This document shows, one piece after another, positions 26,239 through 61,157 of a stretch of DNA of 64,000 bases; position 1 is the first letter of the stretch; each line of letters begins with the position of its first letter. The position numbers were made by a program, and so were the translations under genes. The notes under the pieces were generated by a model. That model did no database searches, was not told the origin of the DNA, and saw nothing but the letters and a program-made list of their open reading frames with translations. The DNA lies in contig NZ_JAHXDI010000001.1 in NCBI RefSeq assembly GCF_023091865.1, forward strand, positions 620,001-684,000, in the 5' to 3' direction. The stretch comes from Chromohalobacter moromii (lineage in GTDB: Bacteria; Pseudomonadota; Gammaproteobacteria; Pseudomonadales; Halomonadaceae).

Positions 26239-26588
26239 AATCGCCTCCTGGCGCAAGCTCGGCTGCTGGTTTCCTTGTAGCCGAAGCGCAATGGTTCGTA
26301 CCGCTCTTGGTTGTCCTGCCCTTTTAGGCTGGGAATGGGAGGTGCCAATGTCTGAAGAATAGCGTGTTGTGACGAATGCGCTGGACCAATATGGGGGTAA
26401 ACGGGAATCTCATTGTTTTACGGGAAAAGAATAGTCCGTGCCGGCGGGGTGTCATTAATCTGGCGGGGATGAGGTAAGGCTGTTATAAGTGAAGAACCGG
26501 GTTCGATTGTCACGCGATACAACATTACCTGTATAAGAGGTAATGGTTCAGTATTTCCTAAAAAGCGTTGCGAGGCGACGAGAGGAAT
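26239..26588. promoter_or_regulatory. divergent region between the ATP-grasp gene and cphB, with palindrome and possible promoter
   Basis: CATTACCT (26523-26530) and AGGTAATG (26538-26545) are perfect 8-base arms with a 7-base spacer. A TATAAG -10-like hexamer lies inside the spacer (26532-26537), with TTGTCA at 26507-26512 as a possible -35 (19-base spacing, rather long). The palindrome therefore straddles a candidate cphB promoter and could be an operator. Nothing else is clear in this 350-base gap. Confidence 0.4.
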
Positions 26589-27443
26589 ATGACGTCACGA
26601 CCCCCTGCCGTATGCGGCCACATCGTGGCCATTGGTGGTGCCGAGGACAGGTCTTCGGAGCTTGCCATTCTCAAGCGCGTTTTCGAGCTAGCGCCCGAGG
26701 ATAATCACGAAGTTGCCGTCATCGCGACGGCCAGCAGTATTCCCGAGCAGGTTCTTCCCAGCTATGAAGCCGCCTTCGAGCGCTTGGGCGCGACCCAGGT
26801 CCATGCGCTGGATATTCAGGATCGCCAGCAAGCTGCCGATGCCGACAATGCCCAGTTGATCAAACGTAGTGGGGTGATCTTCTTCACCGGGGGCGACCAA
26901 CTGCGCCTGACCACCGTGCTGGGAGGCTCCGCCACGTTGCGTGCCATCCGCGAGCGCTTGCGAGCGGGCGCCGTAGTGGCGGGTACCAGTGCCGGGGCGG
27001 CGGCGATGCCCAGCACCATGATCTACAACGGATCGGCCTCGGATGCGCTGCGCAAAGGCGCGGTGAACATGACCTTCGGCCTTGGTTTCGTGCGCGGCAT
27101 GGTCATCGACAGCCATTTTCTCGAGCGTGGTCGCTTCACGCGTCTCATGGAAGTAGGGGCCAGCAATCCCGAGCAGTTGGGGGTCGGCCTGGGCGAAGAC
27201 GCCGCCGTCATCATCTATCCCAATCGTATCCTCGAAACCATCGGACCCGGGCATGTGATCATCATCGATAGCCGGGATCTGGCGAGTTCCAACATTGCGG
27301 AACTGGAAATGGGCGAGCCGGTCGCCATCGAGAACATGATCCTGCACGCCATGGTCAGCGGCCACGGCTACGATCTCGATGCGCGTCGCTATCTGGTGGC
27401 CGAGGAACTGAAAGCGGTATTGGCAGGGAGGCACCAAGAATGA
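26589..27443 (+). CDS. cphB: cyanophycinase
   Basis: Encodes 284 residues, the usual cyanophycinase length. The nucleophile S134 sits in AGTSAGAAAM; FFTGGDQLRLT and VIDSHFLERGR are further family motifs. It cleaves the polymer multi-L-arginyl-poly-L-aspartate (cyanophycin) into beta-Asp-Arg dipeptides in the cytoplasm. GAGAGGAAT precedes the ATG at 26589. The stop overlaps cphA by four bases (ATGA), and cphA overlaps iadA the same way, so synthesis and degradation enzymes are co-translated. Confidence 0.92.
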   Translation: MTSRPPAVCGHIVAIGGAEDRSSELAILKRVFELAPEDNHEVAVIATASSIPEQVLPSYEAAFERLGATQVHALDIQDRQQAADADNAQLIKRSGVIFFTGGDQLRLTTVLGGSATLRAIRERLRAGAVVAGTSAGAAAMPSTMIYNGSASDALRKGAVNMTFGLGFVRGMVIDSHFLERGRFTRLMEVGASNPEQLGVGLGEDAAVIIYPNRILETIGPGHVIIIDSRDLASSNIAELEMGEPVAIENMILHAMVSGHGYDLDARRYLVAEELKAVLAGRHQE

Positions 27444-30079
27444 AGATTCTCGAGCATCGTGCATTGCGAGGACCGAACTACTACAGCCGTTATCCGGCGA
27501 TTTTCATGCGTCTGGATATCGAGGAACTCGAGGCGCGGCCAAGCGATACCGTGCCCGGTATCGTCGAGCGCATCACCCAGCTGTTGCCGACACTGGAGGA
27601 ACATCGTTGCTCGGTGGGGCGTCCAGGGGGCTTTCTAGAACGACTAACGCGTGGTACCTGGGCCGGCCATGTCGTCGAGCATGTGGCGATCGAGTTGCAG
27701 AACCTGATCGGCTTCTCGGTCGGGTATGGAAAGACGGTCGATTCCTACGAGACGGGGATCTATAACGTCGTCTATCGCTACCGCGACGAGGCATGTGGAC
27801 TGGCGGCTGGGGTCGAGGCGGTGGAGATCGTCACTCGGCTTTTCGCCGGTGAAGATAGCGATATCGATGCGATCATCGCCCGCCTCAAGGATGTACGTGA
27901 CGCACACATGCTGGGGCCATCGACCGCTTCGATCGTGGCGGCCGCGCAGCGCCGTGGAATTCCCTATGCGCGCCTTGACGAAGACACCAGTTACGTACAA
28001 TTAGGGCATGGTTATCGCCAACAACACTTTCAGGCGACGGTGACCTGTCGCACGAACCTGCTCGGCCATGGCATCGCCCACGACAAGGATTGGACCAAAC
28101 GGATTCTTGGCGAGGCGGGTATCCCTGTACCGCGTGGACACGTTTGCCATTCACGCGACGAGGCGCTCGAAACCGCACATGAAATCGGCTATCCAGTCGT
28201 CGTTAAACCGTTGATCGGCAATCACGGTCGCGGTGTCAGCACGGACATCGAGGATGACCAGTCCTTGGAGAATGCGTTTGCGGTCGCGTCCGGTCACAAC
28301 GCGGCAGTCATCATCGAGCAGTATATACGGGGAGAAGATCACCGGCTGCTGGTGATCGACGGCAAGCTCGTGGCGGCGGCCAGGCGGCGTCCGGCCCATG
28401 TGGTCGGCGATGGCAAGAGCACGCTGCGGACCTTGATCGATAACGAGAACCACGACCCGCGCCGTGGCATCGGCCATGAAAACCTGCTGACGCAGATCGA
28501 TGTCGATGCACAGACGCTTCGGCTACTGGCGCAGCAGAACCTGACGCTGGACAGCGTCATCTCAAGCGACGAAATCGTCTATCTCAAGCCCACCGCGAAT
28601 CTGAGCACCGGTGGCACGGCGACGGATGTCACCGAAGACGTCCATCCCGATGTGATCTACACGGCGGAGCGCATCGCGCGCCTGGTGGGTCTCGATATCA
28701 TCGGCATCGACCTGCTTGCCGAGACGTTGACGCGTCCGCTGGAGGAACAATCGGCGGCCGTGGTCGAGGTCAACGCCGGACCGGGCTTTCGCATGCACCT
28801 GTCGCCGACTCATGGCATCGGTCGCGATGTCGGTGCACATGTGGTCGATATGCTATTCCCGGATAGCGAGGATAACGGCCGTATTCCCATCGTGGCGGTC
28901 ACCGGCACCAACGGCAAGACGACCACGGTGCGCCTGATCTCGCATTTATTGCGCCAGGCGGGGCGCAGTGTCGGTACGGCGTGCACCGGGGCCATCGAGA
29001 TCGACAATCACGTCATCATGCGCGGCGACTACAGCGGCCCGCAGGCCGCCACGACGGTTCTGCGCGAACCCACCGTCGAGTATGCCGTGCTCGAGGTCGC
29101 CCGTGGCGGCATCATGCGCCGGGGGCTGGGGTTCGATGAATGCCAGGTCGGCGTGCTGCTGAACATCGCCAGCGACCACTTGGGCGAGAGCGACATCCAT
29201 ACCTTGGACGAGTTGGCGCGTTGCAAGAGCGTGGTGATCGATGCGGTCGGTGAGTCCGGCACGGCGGTGCTCAATGCGGATGATCCGCGCGTTCTGGCGA
29301 GTGGTGAATGGGCGCGTGGCGATATCATCTATTTCGCGCTGGACCCCGACTCGCCGGTCGTGCGCGAACATGTGCGTGAGCATGGCGTCGCTTTCACGGT
29401 GCATCACGGCCATATCGTGATGCTGCAAGGCCAGGTGGTGGCTGAGGTACTTCCCGTGGCCAACGCGCCGATCACCTTCGATGGGTTCGCGCGCTTCAAT
29501 ATCGCCAACGCCCTGGCGGCAAGTGCTGCCGCGCATGCACTGGGGCTCAGTATCGCCGATATACAGTTGGGCTTGCAGACCTTCCATCCGACGCCGGGGC
29601 AGAATCCAGGGCGCACCAACCTGATCGATGCCGGGGGCGTGAAGGTGTTGATCGACTACGGCCACAATGTGCCGGCACTCGAGGCCTTGAGCGAGCTGGT
29701 CAGCCGTATCCCGGCGCAACGGCGTATCGGCGTGGCCAGCGCGCCAGGCAATCGGCGTGACGAGGATCTGGTTGCGCTGGGGGCGCTGCTTGCGCATATG
29801 CATGACGTCATATTCTTCTGCGAGACCGCGCCGCGGGGTCGTCCCGAGGGGGAAACCATCGATTTGCTGTGCGAGGGGGCGGCGTCGGTGCCAAATGAGT
29901 GTCGGGTCGAGACCGTTATGCAAGAAGTCGATGCAGTTGATCGGGCGCTCGACGAGGCCGCCGAGGGTGATCTACTGGTGTTGCTGGTGGATGATGTCGA
30001 TGCCGTCACCGAGCGTTTGCGTGGGCAGCGTTTCGAGCCCCCGATGCCCTCAAAAGGTGGCGTGGGAGTTCGTCCATGA
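27440..30079 (+). CDS. cphA: cyanophycin synthetase
   Basis: Encodes 879 residues, standard for CphA. An N-terminal domain is followed by an ATP-grasp domain (about 215-480; YPVVVKPLIGNHGRGVST and VVEVNAGPGFRMHL) that adds aspartate, and a Mur-ligase-like domain (about 485-879; P-loop VTGTNGKTTT) that adds arginine to the side chain. It builds the nitrogen-storage polymer from Asp and Arg with ATP, starting from a primer. Coupled by four-base overlaps to cphB upstream and iadA downstream. Confidence 0.95.
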   Translation: MKILEHRALRGPNYYSRYPAIFMRLDIEELEARPSDTVPGIVERITQLLPTLEEHRCSVGRPGGFLERLTRGTWAGHVVEHVAIELQNLIGFSVGYGKTVDSYETGIYNVVYRYRDEACGLAAGVEAVEIVTRLFAGEDSDIDAIIARLKDVRDAHMLGPSTASIVAAAQRRGIPYARLDEDTSYVQLGHGYRQQHFQATVTCRTNLLGHGIAHDKDWTKRILGEAGIPVPRGHVCHSRDEALETAHEIGYPVVVKPLIGNHGRGVSTDIEDDQSLENAFAVASGHNAAVIIEQYIRGEDHRLLVIDGKLVAAARRRPAHVVGDGKSTLRTLIDNENHDPRRGIGHENLLTQIDVDAQTLRLLAQQNLTLDSVISSDEIVYLKPTANLSTGGTATDVTEDVHPDVIYTAERIARLVGLDIIGIDLLAETLTRPLEEQSAAVVEVNAGPGFRMHLSPTHGIGRDVGAHVVDMLFPDSEDNGRIPIVAVTGTNGKTTTVRLISHLLRQAGRSVGTACTGAIEIDNHVIMRGDYSGPQAATTVLREPTVEYAVLEVARGGIMRRGLGFDECQVGVLLNIASDHLGESDIHTLDELARCKSVVIDAVGESGTAVLNADDPRVLASGEWARGDIIYFALDPDSPVVREHVREHGVAFTVHHGHIVMLQGQVVAEVLPVANAPITFDGFARFNIANALAASAAAHALGLSIADIQLGLQTFHPTPGQNPGRTNLIDAGGVKVLIDYGHNVPALEALSELVSRIPAQRRIGVASAPGNRRDEDLVALGALLAHMHDVIFFCETAPRGRPEGETIDLLCEGAASVPNECRVETVMQEVDAVDRALDEAAEGDLLVLLVDDVDAVTERLRGQRFEPPMPSKGGVGVRP

Positions 30080-31245
30080 GCCCTAACAAGGCACGCCCTG
30101 CCGATACGCTGACCCTGCTGCGTGTCGGCGAGACGTTTACCCCCGAGCGATGCGAGGCGACGGATATTCTCATGGCCGGTGGGAAAATCGTGGCGCTGGG
30201 ACAGGATCTTGCCGTACCTCATGGTTGGCCTGTGCGAGAAGTGGATGCGCGCCATCTGATCGCCGTGCCCGCCTTCATCGACCAGCACGTGCACGTCACC
30301 GGGGGCGGAGGCGAGGGCGGTTGCGGTACGCGCTGCCCGCCGATCAGCGCCCATGACATTGCGTCGATGGGCATCGGCACGGTGGTGGGCGTGCTGGGCA
30401 CCGACAGCATCAGCCGCTCGCCGGCCGACTTGCTGGCCGCGGTGCGAGGACTGGCGGCCGACGGACTGGCCGCCTACATGTACACGGGGGCGTATCGAGT
30501 GCCGGCGCCGACCCTCACCGGCGATATCCAGCGCGATCTGGCCTGGATTCCCGAGGTCATCGGGGTGGGCGAAATCGCCATTTCGGATCACCGCTCGAGC
30601 CAGCCGCGTCAGGATGAACTCGAACGGCTGGTGAGCGACGCGCGGGTCGGCGCCATGCTGGCCGGCAAGCGGGGGATCTGTCATTTCCATCTCGGCGACG
30701 GCAAGCGAGGCCTGGCGCCTCTGAGGCGCCTGCTTGAAGAGACCGAGATTCCTGCCGATCAGATCATCCCCACCCATGTGAACCGCCGTCCTGAGCTACT
30801 CGAGGAAGCGGCGGATTTCGCGCTGGCGTTCGATGCCAGCGTGGATGTCACCGCGTTCGAGGATGCCGGCGATGGGCTTTCCGCGTTCGAGGCGGTGTCG
30901 CGCCTGCTGGCGCGTGGCGTATCGCCGGCACGCATCACCCTGAGTTCGGACTGCAATGGTAGCCTGCCGGAATTCGATGCCGATGGTGCCTATGTGGGCA
31001 TGCAGGTGGCGCGCAATACGGCGCTGATCGCGGATTGGCAGCGGCTCGTGCATGACGAGGTATTGCCACTCGAAGCGGCGCTGGGGCTGCTGACCGCTAA
31101 CGTTGCCCGCGTGTTGGGTCTGCATGCTCACAAGGGTCGCCTGACGCTGGGGTTCGATGCCGATATCACGCTGCTCGACAAGGCCTTGCGTCCCCAGCGT
31201 ACCTTCGTCGCGGGGCGCTGCGTATACGGCGATGTCGACGCCTAG
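30076..31245 (+). CDS. iadA: isoaspartyl dipeptidase (beta-aspartyl peptidase)
   Basis: Encodes 389 residues of the amidohydrolase superfamily. The metal-binding H-x-H lies in FIDQHVHVTGGGGEGG, a signature of IadA; further metal histidines appear in HFHLGDG and IPTHVNR. It hydrolyses beta-Asp-X dipeptides, completing cyanophycin breakdown to Asp and Arg after CphB. The start overlaps cphA by four bases. It ends 14 bases from the convergent nirD gene. Confidence 0.92.
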   Translation: MSPNKARPADTLTLLRVGETFTPERCEATDILMAGGKIVALGQDLAVPHGWPVREVDARHLIAVPAFIDQHVHVTGGGGEGGCGTRCPPISAHDIASMGIGTVVGVLGTDSISRSPADLLAAVRGLAADGLAAYMYTGAYRVPAPTLTGDIQRDLAWIPEVIGVGEIAISDHRSSQPRQDELERLVSDARVGAMLAGKRGICHFHLGDGKRGLAPLRRLLEETEIPADQIIPTHVNRRPELLEEAADFALAFDASVDVTAFEDAGDGLSAFEAVSRLLARGVSPARITLSSDCNGSLPEFDADGAYVGMQVARNTALIADWQRLVHDEVLPLEAALGLLTANVARVLGLHAHKGRLTLGFDADITLLDKALRPQRTFVAGRCVYGDVDA

Positions 31246-31259
31246 ATGATCGGTAGACG

Positions 31260-31622
31260 TCATGCTCTGATCATGACGTCGTCGCCGTCGATCTTGATCT
31301 CCCAGGTATGCAGGCGAACGCTTTCGTCCTCGACGCAGACGCCGTCGCTCAAGCGGAAGTGCTGCTTGTAGAGTGGCGAGGCGATGACCGGCTCGCCTTT
31401 TATATCGCCGACGATGCCGCGCGCGATGACGTTGGCGTTGGAAAACGGGTCGTGGTTGTCCACGGCGTAGGCCTCGGGCGTCCGGCCGGGCAGGTACAGA
31501 AGCGCGACTTGCGTGTCGGTGCCGTCCAGCCAGGCGGCCACGCCGGAATGGGCCACCAGATCGGCCTTTGAGCACAGCGTCTGCCAGGCCACTTCGCTCT
31601 TGAGGGCTGTTGCAGTGTTCAT
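31260..31622 (-). CDS. nirD: nitrite reductase (NADH) small subunit
   Basis: Encodes 120 residues with a Rieske-like fold lacking cluster cysteines, as usual for NirD (VALLYLPG, YAVDNHDPFSNANVIARGIVGD, VIASPLYKQHFRLSDGVC). The ATG at 31622 is preceded by GAGGAAA. It follows nirB by 28 bases. With NirB it reduces nitrite to ammonium in the cytoplasm. Confidence 0.92.
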   Translation of the reverse strand: MNTATALKSEVAWQTLCSKADLVAHSGVAAWLDGTDTQVALLYLPGRTPEAYAVDNHDPFSNANVIARGIVGDIKGEPVIASPLYKQHFRLSDGVCVEDESVRLHTWEIKIDGDDVMIRA

Positions 31623-31650: not shown

Positions 31651-34194
31651 TTAGGCGGGCCTTAGCTGGCCGCGCTCCTCGGTGGCAATGATGTCCGGGT
31701 CGGGGCGACTGTCATTGACGAAGGTGCGAAAGCGCTTGAGCTTCTCCGGATTGGAGAGGGTGTTGGCCCATTCGCACTCGTAGGTGTCGATGACGTGCTG
31801 CATCTGTGCCTCCAGCTCGTCTGCGAGGCCGAGACTGTCGTCGAGCACCACGTCCTTGAGATAGTCGAGTCCCCCTTCGAGATTCTCGCGCCATACCGAG
31901 GTGCGCTGCAGGCGGTCGGCGGTGCGGATGTAGAACATCAGGAAGCGGTCGATGGTGCGGATCAACTGCGCGTCGTCGAGATCGGTGGCGAAGAGTTCGC
32001 CGTGGCGCGGGCGCATGCCGCCGTTGCCGCAGACGTAGAGGTTCCAGCCGTGTTCGGTGGCGATCACGCCGACGTCCTTGCTTTGCGCTTCGGCGCACTC
32101 GCGAGTGCAACCTGAGACGGCGAACTTGAGCTTGTGCGGTGAGCGCAGCCCCTTGTAGCGCTCCTCGAGCCGGATCGCCATGCCCACGCTGTCCTGCACG
32201 CCATAGCGGCACCAGGTACTGCCCACGCAGGACTTCACGGTACGCGTGGCCTTGCCGTAGGCGTGGCCGGTCTCGAAGCCGGCCTCGATCAGTTCGCCCC
32301 AGATGTTGGGGAGCTGATGCAACTGGGCGCCGAACAGGTCGACGCGCTGTCCGCCGGTGATCTTGGTGTAGAGGCCGTATTTCTTGCCGACTTCGCCCAG
32401 CACGATCAGCTTCTCGGGCGTGATCTCGCCGCCCGGGATGCGCGGAACGACCGAATAGGTGCCGTTTTTCTGCATGTTGGCCATGAAGGTGTCGTTGGTG
32501 TCTTGCAACGGCACGTGAGCAGCATCGGTGATCGGCTCGTTGAAGCAGGCGGCGAGGATCGAGGCCACGGCGGGCTTGCAGATATCGCAGCCAAGTTTCG
32601 GGGCTGATGAAGAGCCGAGGCCGTGACCGGTGGTCGTGCCGTGTTTTTCGAGCAGTTCGCTGAAGGTCTTGATGCCCTCCACGCGAACGAGGGAGTAGAG
32701 CTCCTGGCGGGTATGCGCGAAGTGCTCGCAGATCGACTGGTCGACCTCGACCCCGCGGGCCGCCAGCTCGTGGTCGACGACGCTCTTGAGCAGCGCCGCG
32801 CAGCCGCCGCAGCCGGTGCTGGCCCTGGTCTCGTCTTTGACGCTGGCCAGGTCCAGGGCGCCGGCGTCGAGCGTCGCGCAGACGTCCCCCTTGGTGACGT
32901 TGTGGCACGAGCACAGGGTGGCGGTGTCCGGCAGGGCATCCGGCCCCAGCGTCGGCGCGCCGTCGCTGGATGGCAGGATCAACGACGCGGGGTCGTCGGG
33001 CAATGCCAGCCCGTTGGCGTAGTACTGCATCAGGGTGTCGTAGGTGGCGTTGTCGCCCACCAGCATGGCACCCAGCAGCTTCTTGCCGTCGCTGGAGACC
33101 ACCAGCTTGCGGTACTCCTGCTTGAGCTCGTCCAGGTAGCGGAAGGTGCGAGCGCCGGGCGTGCGATCGCCATGGGCATCGCCGATGGCACCGACATCCA
33201 CGCCCAGCAGCTTGAGCTTGGTGCTCATGTCGGCGCCGGTGAAGGTCGCATTGCCCTCGGTCAGCGTGGCGGCGGCGACTTTCGCCATCTGGTAGCCCGG
33301 TGCGACCAACCCGAAGATACTTTGATTCCACAATGCGACCTCGCCGACGGCGAGGATCGCGGGGTCGCTGGTCAGGCAGCGATCGTCGATGACCACGCCG
33401 CCGCGTTCGCCGATTTCCAGGGCGCAGTCACGCGCCAGTTGATCGCGGGGCCGGATGCCGGCGGAGAACACGATGAGGTCGGTTTCCAGCATCTTGTCGT
33501 CCTGGAAGACCATGCGGTGAAAACTCGTCTCGCCGGCCTCGATGCGCTGCGTGGCGCGATCGGTGAGGACCTGCACGCCCAGGGCTTCGATCTTCTCGCG
33601 CAGCAACGCGCCGCCTTCGGCGTCTACCTGCATGGGCATCAAGCGGGGCGCGAACTCGACCACGGCGGTATCCAGGTTCAGACCGCGCAGGGCGTTGGCA
33701 GCCTCCAGGCCCAGCAGGCCACCGCCGACGACCACGCCGGTGGTGGCATCCTCGGCGGCCTCGCGAATGGCGTCGAGGTCGTCCAGGGTGCGATAGACCA
33801 GGCATTTCTCGCGGTCGTTGCCGGGAATTGGCGGCACGAACGGATAGGAGCCGGTCGCCAGGACTAGGCGATCATAAGGATGACGTCCGGACTCGGTGAC
33901 GACCTCGTTGGCGTTGCGGTCGATGGCGGTCACCGTGTCGTGCAGGCGCAGGTCGATGCCGTGCGCGGCGTAGTCGTCGGCGCTGGCAAGCGCCAGCGAG
34001 TCGGCATCGCGCCCGCTGAAGTACTCGGACAGGTGGACCCGGTCATAGGCGATGTGACGTTCCTCGCCGAACACGGTGATGGCGTAGTCGCGGGGCGCAC
34101 CGCATGCGATGAGCTGCTCGACCAGGTGGTGGCCGACCATGCCGTTGCCGATGATGATCAAGCGCGGTGCGTTGGGGGACGTGGGCATGCTCAT
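31651..34194 (-). CDS. nirB: assimilatory nitrite reductase (NAD(P)H) large subunit
   Basis: Encodes 847 residues. Order: FAD-binding loop (IIGNGMVGHH), NAD-binding loop (VVGGGLLGLEAANAL), BFD-like [2Fe-2S] domain (LCSCHNVTKGDVCATL), ferredoxin-like and siroheme/[4Fe-4S] domains (SCVGSTWCRYGV and SGCTRECAEAQSKD). It catalyses six-electron reduction of nitrite to ammonium. The start overlaps the upstream flavoprotein stop by four bases. Expression is probably governed by a sigma-54 promoter, NtrC site and attenuating leader upstream of that flavoprotein. Confidence 0.95.
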   Translation of the reverse strand: MSMPTSPNAPRLIIIGNGMVGHHLVEQLIACGAPRDYAITVFGEERHIAYDRVHLSEYFSGRDADSLALASADDYAAHGIDLRLHDTVTAIDRNANEVVTESGRHPYDRLVLATGSYPFVPPIPGNDREKCLVYRTLDDLDAIREAAEDATTGVVVGGGLLGLEAANALRGLNLDTAVVEFAPRLMPMQVDAEGGALLREKIEALGVQVLTDRATQRIEAGETSFHRMVFQDDKMLETDLIVFSAGIRPRDQLARDCALEIGERGGVVIDDRCLTSDPAILAVGEVALWNQSIFGLVAPGYQMAKVAAATLTEGNATFTGADMSTKLKLLGVDVGAIGDAHGDRTPGARTFRYLDELKQEYRKLVVSSDGKKLLGAMLVGDNATYDTLMQYYANGLALPDDPASLILPSSDGAPTLGPDALPDTATLCSCHNVTKGDVCATLDAGALDLASVKDETRASTGCGGCAALLKSVVDHELAARGVEVDQSICEHFAHTRQELYSLVRVEGIKTFSELLEKHGTTTGHGLGSSSAPKLGCDICKPAVASILAACFNEPITDAAHVPLQDTNDTFMANMQKNGTYSVVPRIPGGEITPEKLIVLGEVGKKYGLYTKITGGQRVDLFGAQLHQLPNIWGELIEAGFETGHAYGKATRTVKSCVGSTWCRYGVQDSVGMAIRLEERYKGLRSPHKLKFAVSGCTRECAEAQSKDVGVIATEHGWNLYVCGNGGMRPRHGELFATDLDDAQLIRTIDRFLMFYIRTADRLQRTSVWRENLEGGLDYLKDVVLDDSLGLADELEAQMQHVIDTYECEWANTLSNPEKLKRFRTFVNDSRPDPDIIATEERGQLRPA

Positions 34195-35456
34195 GCGGCT
34201 TCCTCCGATAGAGTGTCGGGCTTATCGAGTAACGGTTGCGCGTCGCTGGCGCCGAACAGCAGGGCCTGGCGACAGGCGCTCAGATCCTCGCCGGCCAGGG
34301 CGCACTGGAAGTACCAGGGCCCGTCGCCGGTGTCGCCGTACAGCACCGCACCGTCGATGACCCCGTCACGCAGCAGCAGGCGGCGGTAGTCGCCGTGCTG
34401 CGGATCGTGATAGGTCAGCACCTCGTGCGCCGAGGTGGGCGCGATCGGGCCGAAGGCGTACAGCGAGATACCGCTGACCTTGAGCTTGGTGGCGCAGGGG
34501 CGTTCGCGATAAGGCGCGGGCGTGTCGCCGCATAGCCGGGCGGCAAGGACCTCGGCCTGGCGCCAGATGGGTTCGACGAGACCGTAGGTGGTGCCCTCGA
34601 ACTCGCAACATTCGCCGAGCGCCGAAATGTGCGGATCGGACGTGGTCATGAAGGCATCGACCTGGATGCCGCGCGCGGTCGCCAGACCGGCGCGTTCGGC
34701 GAGTGAGGTGTTGGGCACGATGCCGATCGCCGCGACGACGCAGTCGGCCGTGAGCGTGGTCCCGTCGCTCAGGACGACGCCGGTGGCGCGCTGGCCGTCG
34801 GCATCCGGGGCATAGGCCGCGAGATCGGCGCCGGTGTGGATTTCGAGGCCTCGGGCGCCCAGCTCGGCGGCGAGCATGTCGGCGGCGGTGGGGTCGAGTT
34901 GACGATTCATCAGGTGCGTTGCGCGGTGCACGACGCTGACCGTCATGCCGCGCTTGCGCATGCCTTCGGCAGCCTCCAGGCCGAGCAGGCCGCCACCGAT
35001 GACCACGGCGCGGCCGCCCGCGTCGGCCAGGCTGGCCAGCCGCTCGCCGTCCTCCAGATCACGAAAGGCGTGGATGCCGTCGAGGTCGCTGCCCGGCACC
35101 GCGGGGCGTGCGGCACGCGATCCGGTGGCGAGCACCAGCCGGTCGTAGGCGAGTCGGCGCCCCTGGTCGGTGGTCAATGTCCGGCACTGCCGGTCGATGG
35201 CGGTGACGCGCTCGCCGACGATCAGCGAAACGCCCTGCGCGGCATACCAGTCGGGGTGGCGCAGCGTCAGGGCCTCGCGGTCCATGTCGCCGGCCAGCCA
35301 GGGCGAGAGCAGGATACGGTTGTAGGCCGTTGCCGGCTCGTCGCCGAGAATCGTGATATGGCGCGGGCGGTGAGGGTGCGCCAGCACGGTCTCGAGCAAC
35401 CGGTGCCCGGCCATGCCGTTGCCGACGATCACCAGATGTTCGTCGTATGCACTCAT
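34191..35456 (-). CDS. NAD(P)/FAD oxidoreductase, nitrate reductase electron-transfer type
   Basis: Encodes 421 residues. Two dinucleotide folds appear: LVIVGNGMAGHRLLE (FAD) and AVVIGGGLLGLEAAEG (NAD). It resembles the N-terminal half of NirB and the NasB-type electron donor of assimilatory nitrate reductase. The ATG at 35456 has GGGAGG upstream; the longer in-frame extension overlaps the leader terminator. First gene of a minus operon with nirB and nirD. Role as NasA reductase is inference. Confidence 0.8.
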   Translation of the reverse strand: MSAYDEHLVIVGNGMAGHRLLETVLAHPHRPRHITILGDEPATAYNRILLSPWLAGDMDREALTLRHPDWYAAQGVSLIVGERVTAIDRQCRTLTTDQGRRLAYDRLVLATGSRAARPAVPGSDLDGIHAFRDLEDGERLASLADAGGRAVVIGGGLLGLEAAEGMRKRGMTVSVVHRATHLMNRQLDPTAADMLAAELGARGLEIHTGADLAAYAPDADGQRATGVVLSDGTTLTADCVVAAIGIVPNTSLAERAGLATARGIQVDAFMTTSDPHISALGECCEFEGTTYGLVEPIWRQAEVLAARLCGDTPAPYRERPCATKLKVSGISLYAFGPIAPTSAHEVLTYHDPQHGDYRRLLLRDGVIDGAVLYGDTGDGPWYFQCALAGEDLSACRQALLFGASDAQPLLDKPDTLSEEAA

Positions 35457-35487
35457 GCCGTCTGCCTCCCTGACAGTGTGAAGCAGA

Positions 35488-35538
35488 AACGCAAAAGCGC
35501 CTGACACCCGGCGGGGAAACCGGATGCCAGGCGCCTTT
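35488..35538 (-). terminator. leader terminator (attenuator) of the nirB operon
   Basis: On the minus strand AAAGGCGCCTGGCATCCGG (35538-35520) pairs with CCGGGTGTCAGGCGCTTTT (35511-35493) around an 8-base loop, with one bulge, and is followed by GCGTTT. It lies 32 bases before the start codon and inside the transcript, as expected of an attenuator. Confidence 0.65.
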
Positions 35539-35584
35539 GCCTGAAGAGAATCGTGTTGTCGCGAGCCCTGTGTCGGCTCCGGCC

Positions 35585-35632
35585 GGCGCGAGACATGTGT
35601 GCGTCTCACGCCCAAGGGGTCGACGTTGACCC
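35585..35632 (-). promoter_or_regulatory. two leader stem-loops of the nirB operon (candidate NasT/ANTAR target)
   Basis: On the minus strand the first hairpin is GGGTC-AACGTC-GACCC (35632-35617), with a six-base loop having A1 and G4. The second hairpin pairs GGCGTGAGAC with GTCTCGCGCC (35612-35585) around an 8-base loop and does not show A1/G4. They precede the leader terminator, so NasT-controlled antitermination is plausible but less certain than for nasA. Confidence 0.45.
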
Positions 35633-35648
35633 GCCTTGCCATGATTTA

Positions 35649-35664
35649 TGCCAGAGGCATGCCA
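35649..35664 (-). promoter_or_regulatory. sigma-54 promoter of the nirB operon
   Basis: On the minus strand TGGCATG-CCTC-TGGCA matches the -24/-12 consensus TGGCACG-N4-TTGCW with GG and GC at the correct spacing; the -12 block has one mismatch. Transcription would begin near 35638, a few bases before the first leader hairpin. Confidence 0.6.
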
Positions 35665-35772
35665 ATCGTCTGCTAAGGCTTTCTTTTCAGTCGTTTGGGC
35701 GGTTTCGGTAGCACGCGTCGATGGCGATGGATGGCGAGACGTGCGCACTGGCTGTGCGAATGGTGCGCGGAT

Positions 35773-35789
35773 TGCACCAGGCTGGTGCC
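35773..35789. promoter_or_regulatory. NtrC-type enhancer palindrome shared by nir and nas operons
   Basis: TGCACCA-GGC-TGGTGCC matches the NtrC consensus TGCACCA-N3-TGGTGCA except at the final base. It lies 77 bases upstream of the nasA -24 element and about 110 bases from the nirB -24 element. Confidence 0.7.
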
Positions 35790-35865
35790 TTTGGGTATGG
35801 GTAGGTGTGTGATGGACAGCCAGGTGTCAGCCCAAGTGGTTGTTTAAAAGGAATTAGATCCAAGA

Positions 35866-35881
35866 TGGCGCTGGATTTGCA
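35866..35881 (+). promoter_or_regulatory. sigma-54 promoter of nasA
   Basis: TGGCGCT-GGAT-TTGCA fits TGGCACG-N4-TTGCW with invariant GG and GC in register. Transcription would start near 35892, eight bases before the first leader hairpin. Confidence 0.7.
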
Positions 35882-35899
35882 GGCATGGTGTACGTCATC

Positions 35900-35937
35900 T
35901 TTTCGGCCACGGTGCGCCGAAAACGCCAACGGCGGCG
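35900..35937 (+). promoter_or_regulatory. tandem stem-loops in the nasA leader (candidate NasT/ANTAR target)
   Basis: Hairpin 1 pairs TTTTCGGC (35900-35907) with GCCGAAAA (35916-35923), with a C-C mismatch below a six-base loop ACGGTG. Hairpin 2 pairs CGCC (35924-35927) with GGCG (35934-35937) around loop AACGGC. Both loops have A at position 1 and G at position 4, the established signature of ANTAR-binding RNA. A terminator follows 50 bases downstream. Confidence 0.6.
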
Positions 35938-35987
35938 AGACGCAATTCATCATTGGCGGGCGGCCTGCACGGTCGTCCTACCAGGCA

Positions 35988-36030
35988 AAGAGGCCTGATC
36001 CTGCTGCGGCGGGGTCGGGCCTTTTGCGTT
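35988..36030 (+). terminator. leader terminator (attenuator) of nasA
   Basis: A 17-pair stem (including G-T wobbles) joins AAGAGGCCTGATCCTGC (35988-36004) to its partner at 36009-36025 with a 4-base loop, ending in TTTTGCGTTT. It stands 23 bases before the nasA start codon, so readthrough is needed for expression. Confidence 0.7.
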
Positions 36031-36052
36031 TGCAGGTGGAGGGCGAGACAGC

Positions 36053-38740
36053 ATGCAGCAGCACACGACCTGCCCATATTGCGGCGTCGGTTGCGGCGTC
36101 GCGGCAACCATCGAGAACGGCGTCATGACGGGCGTCGAAGGCGACCGGGCGCATCCCGCCAATTACGGCCGGCTATGCGTGAAGGGCTCGGCATTGCATG
36201 AAACGCTGGGCGACCACGGGCGTCTGCTCGCGCCCCGCGTCGATGGGCGCGAGGTGAGCTGGGACGCTGCGCTCGACCAGGTGGCGACACGCCTGGCGGC
36301 GGTGCGCGATGAACATGGCGGCCAGGCGATTGCCGGCTATCTCTCCGGCCAGTTGCTCACCGAGGACTATTACGCCGCCAACAAGCTGTTCAAGGGCTTT
36401 TTGGGGTCACCGCATCTGGATACCAACTCGCGGCTCTGCATGGCGTCCGCGGTGGCGGGCTACAAGCGCGCCTTCGGCGCCGATGCCGTGCCGTGCAATT
36501 ACGAGGACCTGGAAGAGGCCGAGCTGGTGGTGCTGGTGGGCAGCAACCTGGCCTGGAACCATCCGGTGCTTTTCCAGCGCTTGCGCACCGCCAAGCAGCG
36601 CAACCCGTTGATGCGCGTGGTGGTGATCGATCCCCGGGTGACCGACACCTGCGAGGTTGCCGATCTGTATCTGCCCATCGCCCCCGGCAGCGACGCGCGG
36701 CTCTTCAATGGACTGCTGGCCTTCATGGCCGACAAGGGCAAGCTGGATGCGGTCTATCTGGAACGCCACACTCAAGGGTTAGACGATGCCTTGGCGGCGG
36801 CCCGTGACGAAGCGACGACGCTTGCGGGTATCGCCGACGATTGCGGCTTGGACATCGAGGCCCTGGAAACCTTCTATTACTGGTTCGCTTCGCAATTGCA
36901 CGTGGTGACGCTGTATTCCCAGGGCATCAACCAGTCCACCAGTGGCACCGACAAGTGCAATGCCATCATCAATTGCCATCTGGCGGGCGGCAAGCTGGGC
37001 CTACCGGGTGCGGGGCCGTTCTCGATCACCGGCCAGCCCAACGCCATGGGCGGTCGCGAGGTGGGCGGATTGGCCAATCAACTGGCGGCGCACATGGACT
37101 ACCACACGCCGGGGGCTCAGGCGCTGGTCACGGCGTTCTGGGATGCGCCCCACCTGCCCGAGGAGCCGGGCCTGAAGGCCGTCGAGCTATTCGCGGCGGT
37201 AGAGCGCGGCGAGATCCAGGCGCTGTGGATCATGGCCACCAACCCGGTGGTCAGCTTGCCCGACGCGGATCAGGTCAAGCGTGCGCTGGCGGCCTGCCCG
37301 TTGGTGATCGTCTCCGAATGCATGGCGGATACCGACACCCTGGCCTATGCCGACATCGTGCTGCCGGCCAGTTCCTGGTCGGAAAAGGACGGCACCGTCA
37401 CCAATTCCGAGCGGCGTATTTCGCGCCAGCGCGGCATGCTGCCACCGCCCGGTGAGGCGCGCCACGACTGGTGGATCATCGCCCAGGTCGCCAAGCATCT
37501 GGGGTATGAAGAAGCGTTCGAATATAGCCATCCTCGCGATATCTTTGTCGAGCACGCGCGACTCTCGGGGTATGGCAACCACGCCGGGGGGATACCGCGG
37601 CTGTTCGATATTTCCGCCCTGAGTGATCTGGACCGTAACGCCTATGACGCGCTGGTGCCGCTGCAGTGGCCGGTGACCGCCGAGGCGCCGCGTGGCACCG
37701 CCCGGTTATTCGAGACGGGGCGCTTCGCCACCCCGGACGGCCTGGCACGCTTGGTGCCGGTGCGTCCGGTGACGCCCGAGCAGGCGTTGGAAGCTTGCTA
37801 CCCGCTACGCCTCAACAGCGGTCGCGTGCGCGATCAATGGCATACCATGACGCGTACCGCGCGCGCGCCTCGCCTGCTCAATCATCGCGCCGAACCCTAT
37901 ATCGATATCCACCCGCAGGATGCCCAGGCGCACGCCCTCGTCGACGGGGGGCTGGCGCGGGTCTTCAACCGTTGGGGCGAAGCCCGGGTACGGGTGCGTG
38001 TCGCCACGTCGCAGCGGCGTGGCGATGTCTTCATCCCCATCCACTGGAACGCCCAGTTCACCGGGGCCGGGCGTGTCGGCACGCTGTTCGCGCCGCTGAC
38101 CGATCCACTCTCGGGACAGCCGGAGACCAAGCACGGCGCGGTGGCCTGCGAGCCGCTCGACGTGGCCGAGGAGGCGACCCTCCTGCTGGCGCCGACGTGC
38201 GCTCGAGATCCCCTTCGGAGCGACGATGCCTACTGGGCGCGAATGCCGCTGAATCACGCCCAGCGCTGGCAGATCGCCAGCGCCACGTCGCGCGACTGGC
38301 TGACCTGGTGCGCCGCGCGGTTCGGCGTCGAGGCGACGCTGTGGTGCGAGGACGCGACCGGCGGCCGCCTGCGGGCCGCGGGGCTTCGCGATGGGCGTCT
38401 GGTGTGGTGGCTGATGGTCGGGCCGCCCAGTGAACTGCCGGGCTTGGCCTGGCTCGATGCGCGGTTCGGCGATGCCGCGCTGACCGACGAACAGCGTCGC
38501 CGCGTCCTGGCGGGCAGCGCCTCGGGGGAGGCCGATACGGGCCCGGTGGTGTGCAGTTGTCACCAGGTCGGCGCCAAGACGATTCGCGAGGCCATTCGGC
38601 GTGGCGATGCGAGTGTCGATGCGCTCGGCGCGCGCCTGGCCTGCGGGACGCAATGCGGCTCCTGCATTCCCGAACTCAAGTCATTGCTCGAAGAGGAGGT
38701 GGCGCATGCTGGGACTGATGAAGCGCTGGAAACGGCCTGA
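36053..38740 (+). CDS. nasA: assimilatory nitrate reductase catalytic subunit
   Basis: Encodes 895 residues. The N-terminal [4Fe-4S] motif TTCPYCGVGCGV, with a further cysteine in GRLCVKGS, leads into the molybdopterin-bis-MGD domains (SRLCMASAVAGYKRAFG, GINQSTSGTDKCN, ITGQPNAMGGREVGG), a C-terminal dinucleotide-binding domain (LRLNSGRVRDQWHTMTRT), and a final BFD-like [2Fe-2S] domain (VCSCHQVGAKTIREAI and ACGTQCGSCIPEL). It reduces nitrate to nitrite in the cytoplasm. GGAGGG precedes the ATG. cobA overlaps its 3' end by 35 bases. Confidence 0.95.
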   Translation: MQQHTTCPYCGVGCGVAATIENGVMTGVEGDRAHPANYGRLCVKGSALHETLGDHGRLLAPRVDGREVSWDAALDQVATRLAAVRDEHGGQAIAGYLSGQLLTEDYYAANKLFKGFLGSPHLDTNSRLCMASAVAGYKRAFGADAVPCNYEDLEEAELVVLVGSNLAWNHPVLFQRLRTAKQRNPLMRVVVIDPRVTDTCEVADLYLPIAPGSDARLFNGLLAFMADKGKLDAVYLERHTQGLDDALAAARDEATTLAGIADDCGLDIEALETFYYWFASQLHVVTLYSQGINQSTSGTDKCNAIINCHLAGGKLGLPGAGPFSITGQPNAMGGREVGGLANQLAAHMDYHTPGAQALVTAFWDAPHLPEEPGLKAVELFAAVERGEIQALWIMATNPVVSLPDADQVKRALAACPLVIVSECMADTDTLAYADIVLPASSWSEKDGTVTNSERRISRQRGMLPPPGEARHDWWIIAQVAKHLGYEEAFEYSHPRDIFVEHARLSGYGNHAGGIPRLFDISALSDLDRNAYDALVPLQWPVTAEAPRGTARLFETGRFATPDGLARLVPVRPVTPEQALEACYPLRLNSGRVRDQWHTMTRTARAPRLLNHRAEPYIDIHPQDAQAHALVDGGLARVFNRWGEARVRVRVATSQRRGDVFIPIHWNAQFTGAGRVGTLFAPLTDPLSGQPETKHGAVACEPLDVAEEATLLLAPTCARDPLRSDDAYWARMPLNHAQRWQIASATSRDWLTWCAARFGVEATLWCEDATGGRLRAAGLRDGRLVWWLMVGPPSELPGLAWLDARFGDAALTDEQRRRVLAGSASGEADTGPVVCSCHQVGAKTIREAIRRGDASVDALGARLACGTQCGSCIPELKSLLEEEVAHAGTDEALETA

Positions 38741-50200: not shown

Positions 50201-51499
50201 TCAGGCGGACTCACGAAACGGATTGCGCGGGTCCTCGTTCCAGCTCATGTAGGGTTTGTCGCTTGGCTGCGGCACCATGCTGATGCAATCTTCGACCGGG
50301 CAGGTGATCTGGCACAGGTTGCAGCCCACACACTCCTCCTCGATCACCTCGTAGCGCCGCGCGCCGCTGGCGTCGATCAGCTTGGCGATCGACTGATGCG
50401 AGGTATCCTCACAAGCGATATAGCAGCGCCCGCATTGGATGCACGTGTCCTGATCGATGTGCGCGATGGTCTGGAAGTTCATGTCCAGATACTTCCAGTC
50501 GGTGGTATTGGCCACCGCCTTGCCGGAGAACTCGGCGAGACTGCGATAGCCCTTCTCGGCCATCCAGCGCGCCAGACCGTCCTGCATTTCCTCGACGATG
50601 CGAAAGCCGTGGAGCATGGCGGCGGTACATACCTGCATCGCGCCGGCCCCCAGCGCGGCGAACTCCGCGGCGTCGCGCCAGTTGGAGATGCCGCCGATAC
50701 CGCAGATCGGCAGGCCCTGGGTTTCCGGATCGCGGGCGATCTCGGCGACCATGTTCATGGCGATCGGCTTGACCGCTGCCCCGCAGTAGCCGCCGTGGGT
50801 GCTCTGGCTGCCCACGGTGGGTTTGGCGACCATGTTGTCGAGGTCGATGGAGGTGATCGAGTTGATGGTATTGATTAGCGAAACCGCGTCGGCGCCGCCG
50901 CGCATTGCCGCCCGCGCGGGTACACGGATATCGGTGATGTTGGGCGTCAGTTTGACGATCACCGGCTTGGAGTAATACTGCTTGCACCAGCGTGTGACCT
51001 GTTCGATGAGATCGGGATTCTGGCCTACCGCGGCGCCCATGCCGCGCTCGGGCATGCCGTGCGGGCAACCCAGGTTGAGTTCGATGCCGTCAGCGCCGGT
51101 GGCCTCCACCAGCGGCAGAATCGCCTTCCAGCTCTCCTCGACGCAGGGCACCATCAGCGAGACGATCAGCGCGCGGTCGGGCCAGCGCTTCTTGACCTCG
51201 GTGATCTCGCGCAGGTTGATCTCCAGGCTTCGGTCGGTGATCAGCTCGATGTTGTTGAAGCCCAACACTTCACGATTCTTGCCGAAGTGCGCCGAGTAGC
51301 GCGACGACACGTTGACCGCCGCCGGATCCTCACCGAGGGTCTTCCAGACCACGCCACCCCAACCGGCCTCATAGGCGCGCTCGACGTTGTAGGCCTTGTC
51401 GGTGGGCGGGGCGGATGCCAGCCAGAAAGGGTTGGGCGAGCGGATGCCGGCGAATTCGATACTCAGATCGACGTCGGGCTTTTTCGCGAATGCTTTCAT
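50201..51499 (-). CDS. preA: NAD-dependent dihydropyrimidine dehydrogenase subunit PreA
   Basis: Encodes 432 residues. A dihydroorotate-dehydrogenase-like FMN domain (DLSIEFAGIRSPNPFWLASAPPT, ELNLGCPHGMPERGMGA) is followed by two [4Fe-4S] motifs (CIQCGRCYIAC and CVGCNLCQITCPV). With PreT it reduces uracil and thymine to dihydropyrimidines. Its start overlaps the preT stop by one base (TAATG). Confidence 0.93.
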   Translation of the reverse strand: MKAFAKKPDVDLSIEFAGIRSPNPFWLASAPPTDKAYNVERAYEAGWGGVVWKTLGEDPAAVNVSSRYSAHFGKNREVLGFNNIELITDRSLEINLREITEVKKRWPDRALIVSLMVPCVEESWKAILPLVEATGADGIELNLGCPHGMPERGMGAAVGQNPDLIEQVTRWCKQYYSKPVIVKLTPNITDIRVPARAAMRGGADAVSLINTINSITSIDLDNMVAKPTVGSQSTHGGYCGAAVKPIAMNMVAEIARDPETQGLPICGIGGISNWRDAAEFAALGAGAMQVCTAAMLHGFRIVEEMQDGLARWMAEKGYRSLAEFSGKAVANTTDWKYLDMNFQTIAHIDQDTCIQCGRCYIACEDTSHQSIAKLIDASGARRYEVIEEECVGCNLCQITCPVEDCISMVPQPSDKPYMSWNEDPRNPFRESA

Positions 51500-52875: not shown

Positions 52876-52921
52876 GGTAGAACTCCTTCGGCTCTTCTGA
52901 AAATGGCTGCGCTCGGTCATA

Positions 52922-52990: not shown

Positions 52991-53061
52991 TTGTCTGACC
53001 TTCGCTCGCCTGATTTTCAGCATCAGCCGAGAATTGTTATTGGATGACGGTTCTCGGCGAT

Positions 53062-59354: not shown

Positions 59355-59933
59355 ATGACCGTGAAGGTGCTGATCGTGGATGCGCGTCCGGAACGTTCGC
59401 GAGCACTCGAACATGCGTTGCGTGACGCGGGATTCGAGGTCGTGACGCGTGCCGACGAGCATGACGATCTCTACGCCATCATGACGCGCGTCAAACCGGA
59501 TGCGGTGATCATCGATGCGGCGCTGCCCAGTCGCGATACCTTGGAGCACATGGGGCAACTGGGTCGCCGCTTCCCGAAGCCGATGATCATGCTTGCCGAG
59601 GAAGAAACGCCGGACTTGACGCGCGAAGCGACGAGTGCAGGCGTCAGCGCCTACGTGGTCGAGGACGTGCAACCGGCGCTGGTGCGTTCGATGGTTAACG
59701 TGGCGATTGCGAGCTTCGAAGCGCATCGCGCTCTCAAGGGCGAATTGACCAAGACGCAGACCACGCTCTCTCAGCGACGCACCATTGAGCGCGCCAAGAG
59801 CCAATTGATGGAAATGCACGCGTTCAGTGAAGACGCCGCCTATCAATGGCTACGCAAACGCGCCATGAATCGTCGGCTGACCATTCACGAGGTGGCTCAG
59901 GCCGTCCTGGCCAGCGATGACGTCGAGTCGTAG
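59355..59933 (+). CDS. nasT: NasT, ANTAR-type antitermination regulator
   Basis: Encodes 192 residues. The N-terminal receiver-like domain (KVLIVDARPERSRALEHAL) is followed by a coiled linker and an ANTAR RNA-binding domain at about 130-185 (RRTIERAKSQLMEMHAFSEDAAYQWLRKRAMNRRLTIHEVAQAVL). NasT binds tandem hairpins in nitrate-assimilation leaders to prevent termination, and is held inactive by NasS without nitrate. GGAGAGG precedes the ATG at 59355. nasS follows after 9 bases. Matching leader hairpins are found upstream of nasA. Confidence 0.92.
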   Translation: MTVKVLIVDARPERSRALEHALRDAGFEVVTRADEHDDLYAIMTRVKPDAVIIDAALPSRDTLEHMGQLGRRFPKPMIMLAEEETPDLTREATSAGVSAYVVEDVQPALVRSMVNVAIASFEAHRALKGELTKTQTTLSQRRTIERAKSQLMEMHAFSEDAAYQWLRKRAMNRRLTIHEVAQAVLASDDVES

Positions 59934-59942
59934 GAGACAATG

Positions 59943-61157
59943 ATGAATGAGCCCCAAACGCCTCGAAGCGAGTGGCCCTTGCCCGAGCGCGATACATTGA
60001 CCCTGGGCATGTTGCCGCTCAACGATGCTGCGCCACTGGTGGTGGCGCTAGAACGCGGCTTCTTCGCGACGCATGGGCTAGATGTGTCGCTGCACGTCGA
60101 GTCGTCGTGGGCGGGCTTGCGCGATGGTATGCAGCTCGGACTCCTCGATGGTGCGCAGATGCTGCCCTTGATGCCGCTGGCCTCGACATTGGGACTCGAT
60201 GGACGCTCTACACCGATGCTTTCGGCGCTGACGCTGAACCTCGGGGGTAATGCCATCACTGTGTCCAATGCGTTGTATGCCAGCATGCAGGCAGCCGACC
60301 CTGAGGCCATGGCGCAGTCACCGATCTCCGCCCGTGCATTGGCAGCGGTGGTGCGCCAACGACGGGCCGCCGGCGAGCCGGCGTTGCGTTTCGCTAGCGT
60401 GTATCCATTTTCTTCGCACCGCTATCAGCTACGCTATTGGCTGGCGGAAGGCGGTGTCGACCCCGATCGTGATCTCGAGTTACGCGTGGTGCCCCCGCCC
60501 TTGGTAGCGGAGCAACTCGAGGCCGGTTGGCTGGATGGCTATTGTGTCGGCGAACCCTGGAATACGCTCGCGGCGCGTCGGGATAGCGGCCGCGTGCTGA
60601 TCGGCAGTCATGCCATTTGGCAGCATGGGCAGGAAAAGGTCTTTGCGGTACGCGAGGCATGGGCCGATGCCTATCCGGCCACGCACCGCGCAGTGCTAAG
60701 AGCGCTACTCGAGGCTTGCGCCTGGCTGGACACTCCGGCGCAGCGTATCGAGGCGGCACGTTTGATGTGCGAAAAGGGCTATCTGGACGTGCCCCCCACT
60801 GTGGTGGAGGAAAGCATGGCGGCGGAAGGTACACCGGCGCCGCATGGCGCGAGTGTATTCTATCGGTATGCCGCGAACTTCCCCTGGCGGTCTCATCTAC
60901 GTTGGTATGCTGAACAGATGCGGCGTTGGCAGCACCTGGATGTCAGCGAGCCGATACTTGAGGAATGCCTGGTCCGTTGTGTTCGACCGGACCTGTTTCG
61001 TGAGGCCGCCGATGATCTGGGCGTCAATTACCCGCTGGTGGATACCAAAAGCGAGGGCGAGCATGGGAGCGACTGGGTGATGGAAGGGCGGCATGGTCCG
61101 CTCGATATGGGCGGCGACCGACTGCTGGGCGGTGCCCGGTTCCATCACGCCCCTTAG
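59943..61157 (+). CDS. nasS: NasS, nitrate-binding regulatory protein
   Basis: Encodes 404 residues of the NrtA/SsuA-type periplasmic-binding fold but without a signal peptide, as expected of cytoplasmic NasS. LTLGMLPLNDAAPLVVALERGFFATHGLDV and LDGYCVGEPWNTLAARR are NrtA-type motifs. It binds nitrate or nitrite and releases NasT. GGAG lies 6 bases before the ATG at 59943; a first ATG at 59940 is less well spaced. Confidence 0.9.
   Translation: MNEPQTPRSEWPLPERDTLTLGMLPLNDAAPLVVALERGFFATHGLDVSLHVESSWAGLRDGMQLGLLDGAQMLPLMPLASTLGLDGRSTPMLSALTLNLGGNAITVSNALYASMQAADPEAMAQSPISARALAAVVRQRRAAGEPALRFASVYPFSSHRYQLRYWLAEGGVDPDRDLELRVVPPPLVAEQLEAGWLDGYCVGEPWNTLAARRDSGRVLIGSHAIWQHGQEKVFAVREAWADAYPATHRAVLRALLEACAWLDTPAQRIEAARLMCEKGYLDVPPTVVEESMAAEGTPAPHGASVFYRYAANFPWRSHLRWYAEQMRRWQHLDVSEPILEECLVRCVRPDLFREAADDLGVNYPLVDTKSEGEHGSDWVMEGRHGPLDMGGDRLLGGARFHHAP

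Follow-up and report, generated by a model that had tools for sequence, protein, structure and literature searches.

NasT is said to mediate antitermination of the assimilatory nitrate reductase operon in Azotobacter vinelandii, and antitermination of assimilatory nitrate genes has reportedly been described also for the nirBD-PA1779-cobA operon of Pseudomonas aeruginosa. Judged by their titles, these reports concern one operon each, whereas in the locus described here the nitrate and nitrite reductase genes lie on opposite strands and have leaders of their own.

For Paracoccus denitrificans, the accessible parts of the reports state that NasT binds the nasA leader once nitrate dissociates NasS-NasT, and that cascaded control by NtrC and NasTS is proposed by the authors (PMC3795266, PMC5424462); nasA is preceded by the leader hairpins HI and HII at distances of 137 and 91 bp (PMC5424462, in part). 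As far as those parts go, the locus analyzed here resembles the Paracoccus system in its two-hairpin nasA leader, its NasS-NasT pair and its NtrC logic. However, Paracoccus has one operon, nasABGHC, with one leader, whereas here there are two divergent leaders, and the named conserved NtrC site of Paracoccus precedes nasT, whereas here one NtrC-type site lies between the two leaders.

The definition of ANTAR-target leaders given in the accessible part of PMC3369931 comprises two stem-loops of at least 3 bp, hexaloops with A1 and G4, and a linker of variable length. The EutV leaders of Enterococcus faecalis, in the accessible parts of PMC3369931 and PMC8934654, are similar to those described below in that they consist of two small A1/G4 stem-loops, with the second (P2) overlapping a terminator, but differ in the linker, which is 5-12 nt long in EutV leaders (PMC3369931), where an extension by 20 nt abolishes antitermination (PMC8934654), compared to 44 and 73 nt here. 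The Klebsiella nasF leader with NasR is likewise a case of nitrate-responsive ANTAR antitermination of nitrate assimilation genes, although, in the accessible part of PMC3369931, NasR is a one-protein NIT-ANTAR sensor, whereas the DNA analyzed here encodes NasT and NasS. NasST and NasR genes are mentioned for Halomonas genomes, and leaders are not described, in the accessible part of PMC8014003. Among the titles and abstract openings listed in searches of an open-access collection, none concerned Halomonadaceae ANTAR leaders or divergent NasT leaders.

Gene content of the nasA locus

We analyzed a stretch of 64,000 nucleotides (hereafter the window) from the 3.47 Mb genome of Chromohalobacter moromii. 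The NasA protein encoded there is 85-95% identical to NasA in Chromohalobacter records (95% for the best match, C. israelensis, followed by 94% for C. marismortui) and at most 74% identical to proteins from outside the genus, e.g. those of Halomonas and Vreelandella, both of which we take to be Halomonadaceae. The product name of nasA is based on the best-matching families and the context, none of the families shown being over its NCBIfam cut-off. The genes of nitrate assimilation and their regulators are as follows.

31260..31622, minus strand: nirD, nitrite reductase small subunit
31651..34194, minus strand: nirB, nitrite reductase large subunit
34191..35456, minus strand: FAD/NAD(P) reductase, a relative of the NirB N-terminal region, first gene behind the divergent leader
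36053..38740, plus strand: nasA, assimilatory nitrate reductase with molybdopterin and BFD-like domains
59355..59933, plus strand: nasT, receiver and ANTAR domains, 192 aa (domain scan)
59940..61157, plus strand: nasS, NMT1-like protein, presumed nitrate-sensing partner

Thus, nasA is divergent from the FAD reductase-nirB-nirD genes, which run on the minus strand from 35456 down to 31260. The initial annotation had placed NasT and NasS in the same window, and both genes are found at 59355-61157, about 21 kb past the end of nasA, with nasT 23 kb from the leader. The receiver-ANTAR gene adjoins the NMT1-like gene, as in a NasS-NasT pair; the latter gene we take to be nasS from its position and from family knowledge. 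NasT is the sole ANTAR match of the genome (34 of 34 candidates scored), in which one sigma-54 gene (rpoN) and one NtrC above the curated cut-off are also present.

The ORFs at 26568-31245 of the window resemble cyanophycinase, cyanophycin synthetase and isoaspartyl dipeptidase, presumably a nitrogen storage cluster beside the nitrate genes, whereas those at 50201-57537 resemble dihydropyrimidine dehydrogenase, dihydropyrimidinase, ureidopropionase and a permease, which we take to be a pyrimidine catabolism cluster, i.e. another nitrogen-scavenging cluster. A good match to the sigma-54 element (TGGCATGCCTTTTGCT, 59127-59142, minus strand) precedes a NarK-type transporter gene (57636-58991, minus strand). 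A NasT leader was sought before this gene, and neither an ANTAR hairpin pair nor a terminator leader was found; the transporter may be under NtrC without a nitrate gate.

An NtrC-type site between two sigma-54 elements

Within the intergenic region, the following putative promoter elements were identified.

35774..35788, no strand assigned: NtrC-type palindrome GCACCA-GGC-TGGTGC, a perfect GCACCA-N3-TGGTGC
35866..35881, plus strand: sigma-54 -24/-12 element of nasA, TGGCGCTGGATTTGCA, inferred +1 at about 35892
35649..35664, minus strand: sigma-54-like element of the divergent leader, TGGCATGCCTCTGGCA, inferred +1 at about 35638

The palindrome and the nasA element had both been read in the initial annotation and are borne out here; the start predicted there, at about 35892, is the same +1 that follows from the position of the sigma-54 element. 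The palindrome, defined by what we take to be the NtrC-type consensus, is exact in 8 of the 9 nasA regions of the genus and has one mismatch in the ninth. With at most one mismatch, it matches twice in the window compared to 0.35 matches expected (4 of 100 shuffles reach 2), and 29 times in the genome compared to 9 times for the backwards control. Among the sites with one mismatch, there is one about 90 nt before ntrB and another 288 nt upstream of glnA, both genes being above curated cut-offs. Two further exact palindromes in the genome (L100 and L101), located among presumed prophage ORFs and within an amylosucrase-like ORF, are probably due to chance. The single NtrC-type site between the two leaders is centered at about −111 relative to the putative nasA start and at about −143 relative to its putative divergent counterpart.

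The −24/−12 spacing GG-N10-GC is present at 35866-35881 on the plus strand and at 35664-35649 on the minus strand, where the −12 box is TGGCA rather than TTGC(A/T). The sigma-54 pattern alone is not significant in the window (4 matches with at most one mismatch vs. 2.4 expected), so that the weight of the nasA element comes from its position and conservation. The other components of an NtrC/sigma-54 promoter, i.e. an upstream NtrC-type palindrome and, in the genome, rpoN and ntrC, are present as well. With these elements, NtrC would be expected to bind between the two leaders and transcription to start at or near the two indicated positions.

The nasA leader

Downstream of the putative start, the nasA leader contains five predicted structural elements.

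35900..35923, plus strand: hairpin P0, abutting P1, no ANTAR hexaloop (predicted fold)
35924..35937, plus strand: ANTAR hairpin P1, CGCC-AACGGC-GGCG, 4 bp, loop AACGGC
35958..35978, plus strand: linker hairpin between P1 and P2, loop TGCAC, no A1/G4 (predicted fold)
35982..35997, plus strand: ANTAR hairpin P2, CAGGC-AAAGAG-GCCTG, 5 bp (comparison of nasA leaders)
35988..36025, plus strand: intrinsic terminator stem-loop, 17 bp, −29.9 kcal/mol (predicted fold)

In the initial annotation, P0 and P1 were described as two adjacent hairpins with six-base A1/G4 loops. This description holds for P1 but not for P0, in which a loop ACGGTG would require closure by a C-C pair, the predicted fold having instead a 3-nt loop and a bulge. 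The second true A1/G4 hexaloop of the leader, that of P2, which overlaps the terminator, had been overlooked; it was spotted as a recurring second hairpin when 86 Halomonadaceae nasA upstream regions were scanned for A1/G4 hexaloops. The NasT target best supported by the sequences is P1 together with P2 rather than P0 together with P1, so that the first hairpin after the +1 is unlikely to be an ANTAR loop. That P0 and P1 would be the target, with the terminator freed indirectly, appears extremely improbable: P0 is conserved within the genus without a gap to P1 and its tip holds the letters ACGGYG (by eye), but it cannot close a six-base loop, the hairpins that directly adjoin P1 in some other genera (seen by eye in G005, G029, G014 and G113) have other loops without the A1/G4 pattern, and P0 and P1 do not overlap the terminator, whereas P2 does so in 74 of the 80 genomes encoding an ANTAR protein.

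The comparative evidence comes from leaders of the type A pattern, found in 39 genomes. Alignment A1 comprises 37 rows, without G039 (assigned to type B instead) and G119 (masked past the terminator arm); alignment A2 comprises 26 rows, after 11 further rows were left out (6 of genus g6, two ill-fitting, and three near-duplicates from the Chromohalobacter genus). P1 is present in 34 of the 39 type A-like leaders compared to 56 of 1950 mononucleotide shuffles; its loop is AACGGC in 20 of the 34. As this occurrence is far above chance, and as the stem varies in sequence while pairing is kept, P1 is probably under selection. In P2, the loop A1 and G4 as well as the inner two base pairs are invariant in the 37 aligned leaders (30 distinct rows), and the outer pairs covary, with 96.7% of the cells paired and 8 double-changed cells compared to 1.6 in shuffles (0 of 500 as high); one of the five covariation measures, the number of further pair types, was not raised (3 vs. 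3.9 in shuffles). In the terminator consensus of 26 leaders, 9 of the 13 pairs are double-changed at least once. Taken as a whole, the sequence comparison shows that the nasA leader is real and conserved, and it is most likely functional.

Two observations concern individual elements. The P2 loop starts with G instead of A in the nasA leaders of G012 and G071 (L011 and L018; gacGACGACgtc), which depart naturally from the A1 rule, and the stem of the linker hairpin is kept through changes, by eye, within the genus (L003 to L010; 35958-35978 in the window).

The intrinsic terminator before nasA, also part of the initial annotation, is present as the 17-bp hairpin ending in CCTTTTGCGTTT, with a short, interrupted U-run, and was not flagged by a strict terminator scan. 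A weak U-run would be compatible with a sigma-70 promoter closer to the gene that drives nasA and bypasses the leader, but a simple consensus scan of 35400-36200 found no sigma-70-type site, and such a promoter is hardly to be expected. The 3' arm of P2 is identical to the 5' arm of the terminator. In simulated folding of growing transcripts, the pairing probability of P2 was 0.99-1.0 up to position 36012 and 0 from 36020, at which point the terminator pairs reached 1.0; for P1, it was 0.72-0.91, except for 0.01 at 36012. P2 and the terminator are thus predicted to be mutually exclusive, an arrangement of the attenuation type. A search of the whole window against Rfam gave no match reaching the gathering scores and, at E values up to 5, three sub-threshold matches in 35700-36100, all to unrelated families.

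A second leader before FAD reductase-nirBD

On the minus strand, the initial annotation had overlooked a complete second leader.

35617..35632, minus strand: ANTAR hairpin P1', GGGTC-AACGTC-GACCC, 5 bp
35528..35543, minus strand: ANTAR hairpin P2', CAGGC-AAAGGC-GCCTG, 5 bp, 3' arm shared with the terminator
35491..35540, minus strand: intrinsic terminator of the divergent leader, 22 bp

Accordingly, the layered control proposed initially for nasA would not be confined to this gene, because the opposite leader before FAD reductase-nirBD bears the same elements. Both leaders have two stem-loops of at least 3 bp with A1/G4 hexaloops (AACGGC and AAAGAG in one, AACGTC and AAAGGC in the other). The strict terminator scan flags the minus-strand terminator (1 found vs. 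0.8 in shuffles). Better sigma-54 matches than the divergent element here, TGGCACGCTTTTCGCT among them, occur in several other genera, about as far from P2'.

A covariance model, R1, was built on the 26 nasA leaders of alignment A2. In the C. moromii genome, the nasA leader scored 66 bits (E = 1.9 × 10−13) and the region 35543-35487 on the minus strand scored 36.7 bits (E = 8.3 × 10−6), followed by matches with E from 0.03 (an antisense mirror) to 0.83, among the 150 of 2683 first-look candidates that were scored. R1 matches antisense to each terminator were disregarded as a mirror effect. Because R1 matches of 30-34 bits occur also away from nasA, even in G061, which lacks an ANTAR protein (E = 5.2 × 10−5 and 5.2 × 10−4), the score of the divergent leader alone is not decisive; the leader is credible because of its conserved place, P1' and the promoter. 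Both R1 matches are present in all 9 genomes of the genus that have nasA, and the tenth genome of the genus lacks both a close NasA and an ANTAR match. By pattern, the divergent leader was found in at least 43 of the 86 regions, a lower bound given that 55 regions reach only 800 bases upstream. P1' is present in 38 of these 43 leaders compared to 46 of 2150 mononucleotide shuffles, and its stem shows many compensating changes with pairing kept. Across the order, searched with stricter filters, R1 matched 11 of 293 genomes at E values up to 10−4, 5 of them from the same family.

In G110, a type B genome, R1 matches at C2:16320-16369 with 40.6 bits (E = 1.1 × 10−6), about 1.2 kb past the nasA match; this is possibly a further ANTAR leader.

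Leaders and ANTAR proteins across the Halomonadaceae

A survey of 121 Halomonadaceae genomes for relatives of NasA provided 86 nasA upstream regions; an ANTAR protein is encoded in 80 of the 86 corresponding genomes. P2 overlapping a terminator was found upstream of nasA in 74 of the 80 genomes with an ANTAR protein and in none of the 6 without (Fisher p = 2 × 10−6, for a criterion written after the leaders had been inspected by eye and hence fitted post hoc). The 6 ANTAR-less genomes fall in two genera, so that the number of independent events may be only two. Among the 6 ANTAR-bearing genomes that missed the criterion (G002, G004, G008, G032, G054 and G056), a P2-like hairpin is visible by eye in G008, G032 and G054, whereas the other three were missed by eye, too. 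In control sequences, the type B pattern matched none of 86 reverse complements and none of 430 mononucleotide shuffles, and the type A pattern matched 1 of 1720 mononucleotide shuffles. Two automatic finders of the P2-terminator element were set aside. The first one performed poorly (54 of 80 genomes with and 0 of 6 without an ANTAR protein, but 9 of 258 shuffles and 7 of 86 reversed sequences), and the second one was discarded as unspecific (59 of 80 and 1 of 6, respectively, but 21 of 86 reverse complements and 19 of 86 shuffles).

Two genomes of genus g19 that lack NasT, G038 and G091, still have a one-mismatch form of the NtrC-type palindrome and, to either side of it, sigma-54-like elements (that on the nasA side read by eye), and neither leader was found in them. 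In these two genomes, the match to the divergent gene begins 69 and 77 nt past the start of the sigma-54 element, whereas the same distance is 238, 219 and 251 nt in the ANTAR-bearing G019, G104 and G113 of the same genus. In the other ANTAR-less genus, g15, the leader space is partly kept, and no P2-terminator element was found.

This distribution bears on the reading that both hairpins are ordinary terminators insulating the divergent operons from each other, without NasT control. Both are strong and located near gene starts, but each is placed between its sigma-54 element and the genes that follow, where an ordinary terminator would silence these genes, and the invariant A1/G4 hexaloops and the joint absence of leader and ANTAR protein would be left unexplained; we regard insulation as very unlikely.

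At least 9 type A genomes (G007, G015, G027, G031, G055, G072, G090, G101 and G119) have a NIT-ANTAR (NasR-like) protein as their sole ANTAR match. Since these genomes carry type A leaders, sensors of two kinds seem to act on a single leader type, an apparent exchange of regulators, NasT or NasR-like, on a conserved RNA target.

Length of the P1-P2 linker

The linker between P1 and P2 is 44 nt long in the nasA leader and 73 nt in the divergent leader, and ranges from 22 to 127 nt among type A-like nasA leaders. Neither leader of C. moromii thus has the short linker of EutV, although the published definition allows a variable one. Among type B leaders of other genera with a canonical P1 within 60 nt (n = 16), the linker is 3-9 nt in 14 and 22 nt in 2; a canonical P1 was not found within 60 nt in 20 of the 36 type B leaders. 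Long spacing may be common to NasT systems, given the positions of the two P. denitrificans hairpins, 137 and 91 bp upstream of nasA.

Linker hairpins that would draw P1 and P2 together were considered for a chosen subset of leaders with P1 (17 of 34 nasA and 16 of 38 divergent leaders). In this subset, folding energies were mildly better than in shuffles (mean z of −0.9 for nasA and −1.4 for the divergent leaders), but exterior unpaired bases were more numerous than in shuffles (11.6 vs. 9.8 for nasA and 15.2 vs. 12.6 for the divergent leaders); hence, in these leaders, the gap is not shortened beyond chance, and the idea was dropped.

Alternatively, NasT, as a dimer or oligomer, could act via P2 alone, with P1 serving only for recruitment or upstream stabilization at a freely variable distance from P2. 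The linkers of 22 to 127 nt, in excess of the EutV spacing rule, the 5 of 39 type A-like leaders in which P1 was not found, and the similar affinity with which isolated hexaloops bind EutV (PMC8934654, in its accessible part) would fit such a mode of action, and the severe loss of activity upon mutation of HI in P. denitrificans, as given in the accessible part of PMC5424462, points to a need for P1 and leaves its mode of action unsaid. However, P1 is far above chance and keeps its stem pairing, suggestive of selection, and we consider action via P2 alone unlikely, albeit the least unlikely of the alternatives to a joint P1-P2 target.

Proposed mechanism and implications

In our preferred reading, which we hold to be very probably correct, the locus comprises a divergent pair of ANTAR (NasT) antitermination leaders around one NtrC-type enhancer, with initiation dependent on NtrC and sigma-54 and readthrough dependent on NasT freed by nitrate. 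Under nitrogen limitation, NtrC and sigma-54 would initiate transcription of nasA rightward and of the FAD reductase-nirBD operon leftward. By default, the strong terminator would form in each leader, taking up the 3' arm of P2. Nitrate would release NasT from NasS, and the freed NasT would bind P1 and P2 at their A1/G4 hexaloops as soon as these are transcribed; with P2 held by NasT, the terminator would be blocked and the polymerase would pass. The succession of NtrC/sigma-54 and NasT proposed in the initial annotation fits the comparative evidence and resembles the Paracoccus scheme, whereas the hairpin anatomy given there, P0 and P1 instead of P1 and P2, was wrong.

The control logic itself is already known; what is new is the twin layout and the P1-P2 linkers of 44 and 73 nt. 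A more general proposition, which we put forward tentatively and with slightly less than even confidence, is that the Halomonadaceae have long-linker ANTAR leaders (22 to more than 100 nt) that occur as divergent twins at one NtrC enhancer, are lost jointly with NasT, are served by NasT or NasR, and do not require bridging by a single dimer. The last point would follow from long-linker leaders being functional even though EutV leaders fail when extended by 20 nt. The family provides a natural dataset on ANTAR antitermination, with two leaders per genome at one enhancer-like site, linkers both long and short among related genomes, two sensor proteins for one type of RNA, and natural leader-less controls; the permissible distance between the two hexaloops is therefore directly testable.
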